Source: Psychroflexus curvus (lineage in GTDB: Bacteria; Bacteroidota; Bacteroidia; Flavobacteriales; Flavobacteriaceae). From it: 64,000 nt of DNA. Both the position numbers and the translations under genes were made by a program. Shown here in pieces: positions 28,288 through 60,513 of this stretch. Location of the stretch: the NCBI RefSeq assembly GCF_020164585.1, contig NZ_JAIQZF010000001.1, positions 310,001-374,000 on the forward strand. The letters run 5' to 3'. The notes below the pieces were generated by a model, which saw only the letters and a list, made by a program, of their open reading frames with translations, did not search any database and had not been told where the DNA came from. The first letter of the stretch is position 1, and every line of letters begins with the position of its first letter.

Positions 28288-29502
28288 TTATAACTTTTTA
28301 GTTCGCTCTATGGTAAACTCAAAGGTGGTTCCTTTACTCTCTATCGAGTTTACCATTATTTTCCCACCTAAATTGTGAATCATTTTCTTGACGGTAGATA
28401 ACCCAATGCCGTTTCCTTTGTTGCCTTTCCTGTCATTTTCTGCAGCTGTAGAAAACAGATTAAAAATTTCTTTTTGTTTATCCTTTGGAATACCAATGCC
28501 ATTGTCTTTGACAAAGAATCTGTAAAAACCAGGTTCTTTTTTGAAATCGATATCGATTTCAATTTTCGGCTTATCATTATATTTAAGACTATTTCCAATC
28601 AGGTTGAGCAGGATTTGTTCCAAAGCCACGCGATTGGTATAAATATCTATGCTTTCTTCAGGAAAAGAAATATCGCAATCGTCACCGATATCCAGCATTT
28701 CTACAATATCCTCAACTAGCGAGTGAACATCAAATTTCTCAAGAGAATCTTCATTACTGGTAATGGAATCGCTTTCGTAATGGGTGAGAATGTTGGAAAT
28801 ATAGTCACTCAGCTGAAAGGATGATTTCTTTAGATTATTGAGATAATCAAAACCTGCATCATCAAGTTTGTCTTTATATTTTGCTTTTAGAATATCGATG
28901 GTCACAATCATATTAGCCAAAGGCATCTTCATATCGTGAGAGACGACACCCGCAAAATTTCTTAATTGAGCATTTTTTTCCTTTAATTGTTTTTGAGTTT
29001 TCTTCAGGCCTTTGTTAATTTTATGAAGTTCAAACAATTTGATCACCTGGTTGGCTAAAAACAATAAACCTTCTCTTTGCTTGAGCGATAAAGTTCGAGG
29101 CTGATGGTCAATTACGCAAAGGGTACCCAGGCCATAACCATCCTTGTCTCTCAGGGGAACACCAGCATAAAAAACCATTTGCTCTTCGCCTTCAACTAAT
29201 GGATTTCCATTAAACCTTTCGTCTTTACGCGCATCAAAAACTTCCATAATTTCATCATCGCTTTGTATTGCAAAGTTGCAAAACGAATATTTTTTGCCTA
29301 ATTCACAATGGTCCATACCAACTTTGGATTTGAACCATTGCCTGTTTTCATCGAGTAATGAGATTAAAGCAACAGGTGTATCGCAAATCGAAGCTACCAA
29401 CTTGGTAATTTGATCATATTCTTGTTCTGGTAAGGTGTCTAAAATATTTAAGGACCTTAGTGCAGATAGTCTTTGGGATTCAGTTTTAGGATTGGTTTTC
29501 AT
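28288..29502 (-). CDS. GAF-domain sensor histidine kinase
   Basis: The 404-aa protein has a GAF domain (about 20-160), a coiled linker (165-183), a DHp domain with the phosphoacceptor His189 in V-V-S-H-D-M-K-M-P, and an ATPase domain with N-box Q-I-L-L-N-L-I-G-N-S, D-N-G-I-G-I and G-N-G-I-G-L-S. No membrane segments are seen, so it is a cytoplasmic sensor; the ligand of the GAF domain is unknown. No response regulator is adjacent, so it is an orphan kinase. It is the first gene of the nine-gene minus-strand run. Confidence 0.9.
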   Translation of the reverse strand: MKTNPKTESQRLSALRSLNILDTLPEQEYDQITKLVASICDTPVALISLLDENRQWFKSKVGMDHCELGKKYSFCNFAIQSDDEIMEVFDARKDERFNGNPLVEGEEQMVFYAGVPLRDKDGYGLGTLCVIDHQPRTLSLKQREGLLFLANQVIKLFELHKINKGLKKTQKQLKEKNAQLRNFAGVVSHDMKMPLANMIVTIDILKAKYKDKLDDAGFDYLNNLKKSSFQLSDYISNILTHYESDSITSNEDSLEKFDVHSLVEDIVEMLDIGDDCDISFPEESIDIYTNRVALEQILLNLIGNSLKYNDKPKIEIDIDFKKEPGFYRFFVKDNGIGIPKDKQKEIFNLFSTAAENDRKGNKGNGIGLSTVKKMIHNLGGKIMVNSIESKGTTFEFTIERTKKL

Positions 29503-42427: not shown

Positions 42428-42857
42428 CTGAGGTGTTTATGATGTTGGATTAAAGACTTTCTTCAGTTAGTGTTCTCATTATTTTTTAGCCAAACCCGTT
42501 ATCAGACAAGCTTGAAATTAAGTGGTTATCTAATGTGAATTATAATTCCATTACTGATTTTTGTTAAGGATATAAGGATTTCTAAGTTGTTTTTAAATAC
42601 TTCTAGAGTTTTTGTTTTATTGGTGTCTGTTTGATGTAAATCTTCTCAATTTTAGCAGAAAATTAGTTTTAATTCTGGCTAGTATTTTACTATCATTTTA
42701 AAAAAAAAATAGTGTTGAAAGCTATTTTATTTTGGAAAAAAATCTAAAATAATGCTTAGATAAGGAGCTTAAGCCTTTCCATTGCTCAATAAACCTTGTT
42801 AAATTTTAAAATCAATTAAGATTCGCTTAATCAATATTTATGATGAATTAGCAATAA
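42428..42857. other. 430-bp non-coding leader region before the two-component pair
   Basis: No reading frame with support on either strand, no terminator hairpin with a T-run, and no recognisable RNA. The stretch is strongly AT-rich with A-runs near 42700. It contains a short inverted arm pair (TATTTTA / TAAAATA near 42730-42755) of doubtful weight. The promoter of the downstream pair begins at 42858. Confidence 0.5.
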
Positions 42858-42891
42858 TTGTAAAAAAATTGATAAGAGTTTGTTATATTTG
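42858..42891 (+). promoter_or_regulatory. promoter of the HisKA_2/AraC two-component pair
   Basis: TTG (42858-42860), 23-nt spacer, TATATTTG (42884-42891). The -7 box is a perfect match and the start codon lies 30 bp downstream. Confidence 0.6.
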
Positions 42892-42921
42892 TAGTAACCA
42901 ACTATTTAAGAAATAAATTTT

Positions 42922-43524
42922 ATGACCAATGGGGTAAAAGAAGATAATGAAAGACTGAAGGAAATTCTCTATAAAACTCTTCACAGATTTAAAAACAATT
43001 TACAAACACAACTTAGTTTGATGAATATACAGACCTCAACCAATAGGTCTTATTTCGATGACAAAACCATTATTGTAGATAGGATTTTTGCGCTTACTCA
43101 TGTTTATGATCTTTATTACATTAGTAACAAAGAAGAGTATCTGCCAAAAGACTCTCGAGTGTCATTGCAATCATTTATGCTTCATTTTTTTCAGTATTTA
43201 AAAAATTCATCATCAAAAATTGATTTTGAACTTAATGATATATCAGAAATTAATGTAGAAGTCGATGACTTATTAATTTTGAGCTATATTATTATTGAAA
43301 TTAATGATTTTAGAAAAAGCCTTGATGATGATCTGTATTTCGAAATATATCATCAGAACTCTAAAGCATTTTTTAATTTCTCCTTTTCTAGTATCAAAAC
43401 TCATGAAAACTTTCATGAGTTATTTGAAAGTCAGTACAAAATTCTAGATCTCTTGGTTATGCAATTGAAAGGTAAATTCGATTATGAGAAAAAATACGTA
43501 AAACTTTCATTCCCAATCTTATGA
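42922..43524 (+). CDS. HisKA_2-type histidine phosphotransfer protein or degenerate kinase
   Basis: The 200-aa protein starts with a DHp-like helix pair with the HisKA_2 signature L-H-R-F-K-N-N-L-Q (His21) and Q-L-S-L-M-N-I-Q. The C-terminal half has the outline of a Bergerat ATPase domain, but the D-x-G-x-G and G-x-G motifs are missing (only I-I-I-E-I-N-D remains of the N-box). No membrane or sensor domain is present. It may work as a phosphotransfer protein, like ChpT, rather than a kinase. It overlaps the response regulator gene by 4 bp (ATGA), so the two are made together. Confidence 0.7.
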   Translation: MTNGVKEDNERLKEILYKTLHRFKNNLQTQLSLMNIQTSTNRSYFDDKTIIVDRIFALTHVYDLYYISNKEEYLPKDSRVSLQSFMLHFFQYLKNSSSKIDFELNDISEINVEVDDLLILSYIIIEINDFRKSLDDDLYFEIYHQNSKAFFNFSFSSIKTHENFHELFESQYKILDLLVMQLKGKFDYEKKYVKLSFPIL

Positions 43525-44258
43525 AAACAAAAATCCTAGTAGTAGAAGACGACCAAATCATTTCATTTGAAATCAAAACGATTTTAGAGAAAAATGGTTA
43601 TGACGTAAATATTTGTGATAGCTATGCGTGCTGTATCAAAAATCTGGATACATTTAAACCAGAGCTTATACTTCTCGATATAGACCTAAGCAAAAAGTAT
43701 GAAGGTATACAAATCGGCTCTTATTTAAATTCAAAATCACATCTTCCGTTTATTTATATCACTGGGTATACGGATAATGAAACTTTAAAAAGGATTCAAA
43801 CCACAAAGCCGGTGGGTTATTTTTCAAAGCCTTTTAGGGAGATCGATATCATTAACAATATTGAACTTGCCTTATATAATAAAAAAGCAGAATCGGATGA
43901 TAATACTATTCCTGAAGATTTAGAGGAAAGCAAATATTCAAAACCTATAAAAAGAGCATTAGAATATATAGATACCAATATCAACCAAGAAATAAAAACG
44001 GACGAGCTTATAAGAGTTTCTGGTTGGAGTAAGTTTCATTTCATAAGAGAATTCGCCAAGGAAGTTGGGATTACACCATATCAATATGTTTTTGATGAAA
44101 AGATGAAACTGGCTTCTTCAAAATTGAAGAATACCTACCAGCCTGTTAAAGAGATTGCTTTTGACCTTGGTTACAGATCCAATTCTAGTTTTACTAATGC
44201 ATTTGTAAAGCACGCAGGAGTATCTCCCTCTCACTATAGAAAAAAACATTGTAGATAG
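43521..44258 (+). CDS. response regulator with AraC-type DNA-binding domain
   Basis: The 245-aa protein has a receiver domain (1-120) with E9/D10/D11, phosphoacceptor Asp53 in L-L-D-I-D, and Lys in S-K-P-F near 107; an acidic linker (124-140); and an AraC HTH domain (about 145-245) with two helix-turn-helix units, the second marked by A-F-D-L-G-Y-R-S-N-S-S-F-T-N-A-F. It should bind DNA on phosphorylation. The usual flavobacterial partner domains (LytTR, NarL) are not used; free-standing receiver-AraC proteins are less common there. Target genes unknown. Confidence 0.88.
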   Translation: MKTKILVVEDDQIISFEIKTILEKNGYDVNICDSYACCIKNLDTFKPELILLDIDLSKKYEGIQIGSYLNSKSHLPFIYITGYTDNETLKRIQTTKPVGYFSKPFREIDIINNIELALYNKKAESDDNTIPEDLEESKYSKPIKRALEYIDTNINQEIKTDELIRVSGWSKFHFIREFAKEVGITPYQYVFDEKMKLASSKLKNTYQPVKEIAFDLGYRSNSSFTNAFVKHAGVSPSHYRKKHCR

Positions 44259-58962: not shown

Positions 58963-60513
58963 TTATTTAGGTTCCATCACCACAAAAGGGATGATCATCT
59001 CTTCCAAAGATATGCCTCCGTGTTGGTATGAGTTTCTATAATAGTTTACGTAATAATTATAATTATTGGGATAAGCCAGAAAATAATTTTCTTTGGCAAA
59101 AATAAAAGAACTCGACATATTGATGCTTGGCAATTGAATTTTTTTAGGATCCTTTGCGACAACCACATCTTTCTCATTGTAAGTAAGGCTTTTACCTGTT
59201 TTGTATCTCAAGTTCAAACTTGTGTTTTTGTCTCCAACGACTTTGGATGGGTGTTTTACATTGATGGTGCCATGGTCTGTGGTCATTATCAATTTAAAAC
59301 CTAAACCTTGTGCTTGCTGGATAATATCCAGCAATGGGGAGTTTTTAAACCAGCTTTGAGTTAAAGATCTGTAGGATTTATCGTTGGAAGCCAATTCTTT
59401 AATCACTTCCAATTCAGTTTTGGAATGAGACAGCATATCTACAAAATTATAGACCAGTACAGTCAAGTCATTGTCTTTCTGGCTTCTGAAATTTTCAGCC
59501 AATTTTTTACCTTTTGAAACAGTAGTTATTTTGTGGTATTGAAATTTGTAATCCTTTCCGAGTCTGCTAAGCTGGGATTCTAAAAACTCCTTTTCGTACT
59601 GATTTTTCCCGCCTTCATCGGTGTCATTTAACCAATATTCTGGATAAAGCTTTTCCATGTCTGCCGGAGTCAAACCAGAGAATAGAGCATTTCTAGCATA
59701 TTGAGTTGCCGTTGGTAAAATACTGAAATACGGTTCTTCCCTGCTTTTTTTATAATGATTGTTTATTGTAGATTCAAAAGATTTCCACTGGTCATATCTT
59801 AAATTATCCACTACAACTAAAAGGGTTGGCTGCTTTTTGGACAATTCTGGTAATATTCTAGACTTAAAAAGCGTGTGAGATAGAGTGGGAGCGTCAGCGT
59901 TTTTCTCAAACCAGGTGGGGTAATTCTTATCTATAAATTTACAGAATTGAATATTGGCTTCATTCTTTTGAGATTCAAGAATTTGAAACATTCCACTGTC
60001 TTCAACGGTTTCTAGCTCTAGCTCCCAGTAAATTAATTTTAAATATAAGTCTATCCATTCCTGGTAGGAGTTTACGTTGGTTAATTCCATTGAGATCTTT
60101 CTAAACTCCTGCTGATAATTTAAAGTTGTTTTTTCCGAGATTAATCTAGTATGGTCTAGATTCTTCTTTAGGCTTAGAAGAATTTGATTGGGATTGACAG
60201 GTTTTATGAGGTAGTCTGCAATTTTAGAGCCTATGGCTTCTTCCATGATATACTCTTCTTCGCTTTTGGTAATCATAATGACAGGCAAGTCACTTCGGAT
60301 GGCTTTCAATTCGTTTAGAGTTTCCAAACCTGTAAGACCAGGCATGTTTTCATCTAAAAAAACAATGTCAAAATTGGTTTTGACAACTTCATCTATAGCT
60401 TCAGTACCACTTTGGCAGGTTGTTACTTCATAAGATTTTTTCTCTAAAAACAAAATATGAGGCTTCAGTAGATCAATCTCATCATCCACCCAAAGTACTT
60501 TTATCTTTGACAT
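58963..60513 (-). CDS. porX: PorX, receiver-PglZ response regulator of the type IX secretion system
   Basis: The 516-aa protein has a receiver domain (1-120) with phosphoacceptor Asp54 in V-F-L-D-E-N-M-P and Lys in L-I-K-P, then a helical linker, and a C-terminal PglZ domain of the alkaline-phosphatase fold (about 200-516) with V-V-D-N-L-R-Y-D-Q, A-T-Q-Y-A-R-N and T-T-D-H-G-T. This architecture is that of PorX, which with PorY and SigP controls T9SS genes. Two T9SS cargo genes (4517-6400, 35110-36333) are in the window. It is divergent from the HD gene. Confidence 0.93.
   Translation of the reverse strand: MSKIKVLWVDDEIDLLKPHILFLEKKSYEVTTCQSGTEAIDEVVKTNFDIVFLDENMPGLTGLETLNELKAIRSDLPVIMITKSEEEYIMEEAIGSKIADYLIKPVNPNQILLSLKKNLDHTRLISEKTTLNYQQEFRKISMELTNVNSYQEWIDLYLKLIYWELELETVEDSGMFQILESQKNEANIQFCKFIDKNYPTWFEKNADAPTLSHTLFKSRILPELSKKQPTLLVVVDNLRYDQWKSFESTINNHYKKSREEPYFSILPTATQYARNALFSGLTPADMEKLYPEYWLNDTDEGGKNQYEKEFLESQLSRLGKDYKFQYHKITTVSKGKKLAENFRSQKDNDLTVLVYNFVDMLSHSKTELEVIKELASNDKSYRSLTQSWFKNSPLLDIIQQAQGLGFKLIMTTDHGTINVKHPSKVVGDKNTSLNLRYKTGKSLTYNEKDVVVAKDPKKIQLPSINMSSSFIFAKENYFLAYPNNYNYYVNYYRNSYQHGGISLEEMIIPFVVMEPK

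Follow-up and report, generated by a model that had tools for sequence, protein, structure and literature searches.

A HisKA_2-derived protein without sensor or ATP-binding glycines, paired with a receiver-AraC regulator in Psychroflexus: a proposed histidine phosphotransferase

Histidine phosphotransferases derived from histidine kinases are described, in the literature cited here and to the extent of those parts of the papers on which we draw throughout, in Alphaproteobacteria and Bacillota (PMC5898713, PMC5964349, PMC3433190, PMC12826061). PhyT of Sphingomonas melonis (formerly PhyP) contains a degenerate ATPase domain and transfers phosphate from SdrG to PhyR via one histidine (PMC5898713). 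In ChpT of Caulobacter, the ATP lid is replaced by a helix, and no ATP was observed in the crystals (PMC3433190); PhyK and LovK, also of Caulobacter, are HisKA2 phosphotransferases that are fed by the single-domain receiver MrrA and show no autokinase activity in vitro (PMC5964349). Spo0B is a dimeric transferase that is thought to be kinase-derived, with orthologs poorly conserved in sequence (PMC12826061). A survey of 235 Bacteroidetes species reported HPt domains in about half of them (PMC4558063), so that relays as such are not new in this phylum. Here, we analyze two overlapping genes, ORF1 and ORF2, in a 64,000-nucleotide stretch of the genome of Psychroflexus curvus (Bacteroidota; contig NZ_JAIQZF010000001.1, positions 310,001 to 374,000; hereafter, the window), which encode, respectively, a HisKA_2-derived protein without a sensor domain and a receiver-AraC response regulator. 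We consider it fairly probable, given conserved residues, a predicted structure and the analogy with the systems above, that ORF1 is a kinase-derived histidine phosphotransferase, such that its His21 would take phosphate from a receiver domain and pass it to Asp53 of the regulator.

ORF1 (42922..43524; all features of the window are on the plus strand unless indicated otherwise) encodes 200 amino acids and overlaps ORF2 (43521..44258; 245 amino acids) by 4 bp, ATGA. The only family that passes its Pfam cut-off in ORF1 is HisKA_2 (PF07568), which matches residues 21-70 with 22.8 bits and E 9.7e-5, the cut-off being 22.3 bits; HWE_HK is below its own cut-off. Up to an E value of 1, the scan listed these two families and no ATPase family, sensor family or HPt domain (PF01627). 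ORF2 consists of a receiver domain (Response_reg, E 1.8e-17; residues 5-114, 43533..43862) and an AraC-type DNA-binding domain (HTH_18, E 3.7e-19; residues 167-241, 44019..44243). The codon of ORF1 His21, the proposed phosphate-carrying residue, is CAC at 42982..42984, and that of ORF2 Asp53, the expected phosphoacceptor, is GAT at 43677..43679.

A sequence search detects ORF1 in 10 of the 27 Psychroflexus genomes, and the regulator follows it in each. Among named relatives, Psychroflexus sediminis DSM 19803 is the nearest (74% identity over ORF1); P. sediminis is also the one relative found in a contig scan, and a plasmid search found none. All ten close copies of ORF1 exceed the HisKA_2 cut-off, and in all ten copies of the regulator the receiver active site (D10, D11, D53, T81, K103) is complete and invariant; the 4-bp overlap is present in nine, the exception being genome G005, in which the corresponding start codon follows immediately after the stop. 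Comparison of the loci anchored on a conserved 171-aa gene downstream of the pair, which is present in 26 of the 27 genomes, revealed two further, divergent pairs; those of G019 and G022 occupy the same position and retain the 4-bp overlap. Hence the pair occupies the same place in 12 of the 27 genomes (10 identified by sequence and 2 by position), and the unit is more than a chance juxtaposition. The preliminary description of this locus, made from the sequence of the window, as a minimal pair of a degenerate HisKA_2 protein and a receiver-AraC regulator is thus borne out by the two ORFs, their overlap and their recurrence in the genus. At the anchored spot, the pair was not found in 13 genomes, and two were uninformative (G017, in which the contig ends just past the 171-aa gene, and G007, which is 52% complete and lacks the anchor). 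Elsewhere in the 13 pair-less genomes, the search consisted of an ORF1 sequence search, which had missed G019 and G022, and a HisKA_2 search; profile searches covered G012 only.

Retention of His21 had been set beforehand as a point on which the preliminary description could fail, and it held: this histidine is invariant in all 12 copies, and no other histidine column is. Over the 12 copies, 17 of 212 columns are invariant, including the histidine and the N-L-Q that follow it, and the ten close copies all share HRxKNNLQTQ, that is, a complete HRxKNN phosphoacceptor motif. The residues expected to bind nucleotide behave differently. For comparison, 40 HisKA_2 stretches taken from the fetched loci were aligned to the ten close copies; one of these stretches ends before the G1 and G2 columns. 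The G1 Asp, the first G1 Gly and the G2 Gly are each present in none of the ten ORF1 copies versus 39 of the 40 relatives, and the second G1 Gly in none versus 37 of 40, with Phe at this position in two relatives. An ATPase domain with G1 and G2 motifs, as in an active histidine kinase, is therefore not recognized in ORF1, and the earlier statement that the protein lacks both a sensor and the ATP-binding glycines agrees with the Pfam scan and with these counts.

The predicted structure of the ORF1 monomer (mean pLDDT 74.8, with block means of 79-92 over residues 81-200) follows the layout of a hairpin-plus-ATPase kinase core, namely, two long helices followed by an alpha/beta domain. Residues 161-167, between the two lost boxes, are modelled as a helix; with the positions assigned by hand, this is where an ATP lid would be expected. 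The best solved matches of the model are 4r39 (Z 16.0, rmsd 3.9, 164 aligned residues) and then 5epv (Z 12.7, rmsd 3.7, 184 aligned), the kinase domains of EL346 and Brucella LOV-HK, which we take to be HWE/HisKA_2-type kinases; ChpT is not among the 50 fold matches listed. The only solved relatives identified by sequence were three designed knot proteins, which we regard as chance hits. In this model, a kinase-like hairpin is joined to an ATPase-like domain devoid of nucleotide motifs, which indicates that ORF1 is more than a bare hairpin: the whole ATPase-like fold appears to be kept while the nucleotide-binding residues are gone.

Six genome pairs, some with dS values near saturation, gave dN/dS ratios of 0.057-0.172 (ORF1) and 0.017-0.051 (regulator): both genes are constrained by purifying selection, ORF1 less strongly. 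In each of the six pairs, the ORF1 ratio exceeds the regulator ratio, and two copies of ORF1 are extremely divergent, as might be expected of a functionless, decaying kinase kept merely by its position before the regulator; with ratios that low, an open frame in all 12 copies and an invariant histidine, we consider decay the least probable of the explanations discussed here.

The two divergent copies of ORF1, those of G019 and G022, are about 23% identical to the copy in the window, and a Pfam scan of the G019 copy, the only one of the two scanned, listed no family up to E 0.1. We treat them as probable homologs given the combination of BLASTP matches (E 8e-8 for G019 and 4.9e-7 for G022, obtained with no composition correction against a handful of target sequences), position, overlap and partner gene; a comparison of the close and divergent profiles gave a low probability (9.8), although the alignment is collinear from the histidine onwards. 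The partner regulators in G019 and G022 are 48-50% identical to ORF2 of the window and keep the phosphorylation site.

A trace of the regulator is also seen in one pair-less genome, G003, where the truncated DNA-binding end of a receiver-AraC regulator with an internal stop (L113:2019-2249, minus strand) shows 50% identity over 80 codons and terminates a little beyond the 171-aa gene, at the expected end of the regulator. This relic lies at the site of the lost pair; the regulator was thus once present in G003 and has since disappeared. No ORF1 relic was seen in G003, and no relic of either gene in G016.

The origin of ORF1 is illuminated by a single genome outside Psychroflexus. Among 397 sampled genomes of the family, with up to 6 candidates per genome scored, a regulator of the ORF2 type (E<=1e-30) was detected outside the genus only in G225, which belongs to another genus (L098). 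There, the regulator gene overlaps that of a kinase with readable HHRVKNN, N, G1 and G2 boxes. The G225 pair resembles ORF1/ORF2 in its overlapping genes, the regulator architecture and the HHRVKNN hairpin, but its kinase, unlike ORF1, has N, G1 and G2 boxes as well as an extended N-terminal part (TPR-like, by eye). Since this kinase keeps all its boxes beside a regulator of the same type, ORF1 is best seen as such a kinase cut down, and, judging from the sequences, the G225 protein is likely to represent the kind of ancestor from which ORF1 came. With the ORF1 profile (E<=1e-6; up to 8 candidates per genome scored), 30 of the 397 genomes gave matches, 2 of these within the genus; the matches in the other 28 are frames of 292-694 codons, all longer than ORF1, and no receiver-AraC gene was noticed by eye near them (28 loci, one per genome, with complete ORFs of at least 100 aa listed within about 1.5 kb on each side). 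Because few candidates per genome were scored and one locus per genome was viewed, ORF1 counts outside the genus merely as not found.

Compared with the described transferases, ORF1 is reduced in its own way. PhyK and LovK carry sensor parts, and the hairpin of Spo0B, a member of the sporulation relay of Bacillota, probably belongs to a different family from that of ORF1. PhyT is likewise kinase-derived, with an HRxxN hairpin and a degenerate ATPase domain, and encoded at the locus of its regulator; unlike PhyT, as far as the cited text describes it, ORF1 has no sensor or membrane part, and its partner is an AraC-type DNA-binding regulator in a member of Bacteroidota. ChpT, which serves CtrA and also CpdR (PMC9981736), is of similar size (the 4fpp chain has 205 residues) and likewise combines a helical hairpin with an ATPase-like domain, a resemblance to ORF1 that is known from anatomy and not from sequence. 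PhyK and LovK, in contrast to ORF1, are not described as degenerate in the parts of the report cited (PMC5964349). On the best reading, ORF1 would thus be of the ChpT/PhyT working type, a likeness of anatomy. So far as titles and abstracts show, the reduction, the partner and the phylum of ORF1 are all new; no such pair in Bacteroidota was found by title or abstract, in a literature search that left most subscription journals outside its coverage. If the proposal is correct, a 200-residue Bacteroidota protein fixed in an operon with its regulator would be a case in which the route from kinase to phosphate shuttle was taken again. With a complete pair in another genus, drifted copies that keep the histidine and a relic of the regulator, this locus would be a compact model for studying the residue requirements of phosphotransfer proteins and the conversion of a two-step into a four-step system.

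The mechanism we envisage starts from a full HisKA_2 histidine kinase, from which ORF1 would have arisen by loss of the sensor and of the nucleotide-binding residues, with retention of the ATPase-domain shell and of the helical hairpin that bears the phosphoacceptor histidine. Presumably acting as a dimer, ORF1 would accept phosphate on His21 from a phosphorylated receiver domain and donate it to Asp53 of its operon partner, the ORF2 regulator, and the charged regulator would then act on target promoters, probably including its own. The preliminary description had likewise suggested a phosphotransfer protein feeding Asp53, and the invariant His21, the lost ATP motifs and the complete receiver site support this as the best reading. 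Its further suggestion, that an orphan kinase, for example the GAF kinase encoded at 28288-29502, phosphorylates the protein directly, found no support: in the published relays SdrG-PhyT, MrrA-PhyK and CckA-ChpT, the transferase is fed by a receiver domain, which in CckA is that of a hybrid kinase (PMC5898713, PMC5964349, PMC9981736), and we rejected this kinase as a dedicated donor given that it is a core gene, present in 26 of the 27 genus genomes with or without the pair.

Because the published relays run His-Asp-His-Asp, a receiver must stand before ORF1, the genome of which contains 16 receiver matches and 20 ATPase-domain matches. At least one further GAF-HisKA kinase (E<=1e-60) occurs in each of 13 genomes, namely, the 12 with the pair and G017; this second kinase emerged as a paralog of the 28288-29502 query, in an unplanned comparison at this single threshold. 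The surroundings of this second GAF kinase, fetched in all 13 genomes, include a gene for a 135-aa single-domain receiver in 12 of the 12 pair genomes; in G017, where the kinase is just 59% identical, the receiver was not found in the fetched stretch. The other 14 genomes (the 13 that are pair-less at the anchored spot and G007) yielded no second GAF kinase at the same threshold, a result that concerns the kinase, the 135-aa receiver itself not having been searched for there. The module of kinase and receiver (L128:6287-9086) is unlinked to the pair.

Two trees, one built from the core GAF kinase and the other from three joined proteins, both place G019 and G022 with the pair-less G003 and G016, apart from the other ten pair genomes (bootstrap/SH-aLRT 100/98 for the core GAF kinase; SH-aLRT/bootstrap 99.5/100 for the joined proteins). 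Neither G003 nor G016 shows a second GAF kinase at E<=1e-60, and the donor cluster of G019 and G022 has, by eye, other neighbors than that of G000, G004, G008 and G020. The shared distribution of donor module and pair would be explained by joint loss together with a shared gain, and we regard it as a real lead, albeit one built on few independent events. On this evidence, the 135-aa receiver encoded with the second GAF kinase appears to be the most likely donor to ORF1, an assignment that we make with less confidence than that of ORF1 itself. The full scheme, a four-step Bacteroidota relay running from the second GAF kinase (or its PAS partner) through the 135-aa receiver and ORF1 to the regulator, with separate input and output loci inherited and lost as a unit, and independent of the look-alike alphaproteobacterial relay, is put forward only tentatively.

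Another single-domain receiver, L071, selected for its nearness to what we take to be the receiver motif of the SdrG/MrrA type, was rejected as the donor, being present at E<=1e-20 in 4 of the 27 genomes, only two of which have the pair. A 903-codon kinase with its own receiver (L063/L079) has a transporter-like N-terminus by eye, and, among the matches listed, pair-less genomes likewise contain frames of similar length (about 900 codons) that include an ATPase domain. Receivers L066 and L070 and the hybrid kinase L065 were left out of the distribution comparison.

Several observations weigh against the phosphotransferase interpretation. The hairpin, where His21 lies, is poorly modelled (block means of 44-68 over residues 1-80), and the placement of the lost motifs hangs on one alignment, which is gapped there. 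The divergent copies keep the His, Asn, Leu and Gln but have lost the Arg-x-Lys-Asn, such that only the His and the last Asn are left of HRxKNN, and their chemistry may therefore differ; the model of a divergent copy is weak (pLDDT 59.2 overall), and its Foldseek matches, with kinases from E 1.1e-3, 4fpp at rank 39 and 4qpj at rank 46 (both titled as phosphotransferase, 4qpj being ChpT with CtrA; PMC9981736), are not used as evidence. The co-distribution with the donor module involves few independent events, one threshold and a comparison from which most other receivers were left out. Finally, the N-box Asn is retained in 8 of the 10 close copies (40 of 40 relatives), and a Spo0B ortholog is reported to have ATPase and autophosphorylation activity (PMC12826061), so that ORF1, too, may make some residual use of nucleotide.

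If this residual use were the main one, ORF1 would still be a kinase, either binding nucleotide in an unusual manner or relying on an ATPase domain supplied by the subunit of another kinase. The N-box Asn and the ATPase-like fold kept in the model fit such a protein, as does the presence of a second HisKA_2 protein in 3 of the 10 close genomes (G004, G015 and G025). Set against these points are the G1 Asp and the G1 and G2 glycines, missing from every close copy, and the fact that ORF1 is the lone HisKA_2 match (E<=0.001) in its own genome, so that no HisKA_2 partner was found there; we consider kinase activity very unlikely.

The same anatomy would also suit a phosphotransferase-like protein that serves mainly as an off-switch, with the hairpin holding the ORF2 receiver inactive or draining phosphate from it, and other kinases or a small phosphodonor charging the regulator. 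PhyT also holds PhyR in a complex and was first thought to be a phosphatase, but it showed no phosphatase activity in vitro (PMC5898713). The 4-bp overlap suggests matched amounts of the two proteins, as a holding function would favor, whereas pure binding leaves unexplained why one histidine has survived beyond most of the protein. We judge an off-switch to be unlikely, though less so than a surviving kinase, and prefer transfer through His21.

The region upstream of ORF1 suggests how the pair might be expressed. A promoter-like element, TATATTTG (42884..42891), precedes ORF1, and TAnnTTTG, which we assume to be the Bacteroidota -7 element, occurs 28-38 nt upstream of ORF1 in all ten close genomes. 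Further upstream lies a candidate operator of two CAAT half-sites 20 nt apart (42830..42855). AraC-type proteins bind repeats spaced by about two helix turns. The half-site pair is present in 8 of the 10 close genomes (not in G004 or G020), and the pattern, itself drawn from this site, has its sole match in the window here, versus 0.09 expected. At the divergent loci of G019 and G022, no CAAT half-site pair was found, and TAnnTTTG is present in G019 only, at -56. In 8 of the 10 close loci, a divergently oriented gene that appears thioredoxin-like by eye lies upstream of the pair; it is missing from the window and from G004 and is therefore not counted in the system. The promoter block persists in the window despite the loss of the divergent gene and is thus probably part of the pair. 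The regulator would probably act on its own promoter.

A thioredoxin-like gene, again by eye, directly adjoins the 171-aa gene in 7 of the 13 pair-less genomes. A possible remnant of this gene in the window (42529-42687, within 42428-42921; 32% identity across 53 aa, with E 0.12 when the whole window is searched) is doubtful.

The cluster of the second GAF kinase also encodes, in 8 of the 12 pair genomes, a 336-aa receiver-PAS protein (L128:7667-8674 on contig C12 of G000). At its end, this protein has a partial HisKA hairpin, which at 23.6 bits scores under the Pfam cut-off; no ATPase family is listed for the protein, which is possibly another kinase-derived transfer protein. In G004, G005, G021 and G025 (L133, L136, L137 and L140), the large PAS protein of the cluster matches only up to about residue 911, and its kinase end matches only the neighboring GAF kinase there. 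Within the window, another receiver domain is encoded at 60172-60498 on the minus strand, in a 523-codon frame that appears PorX-like by eye.
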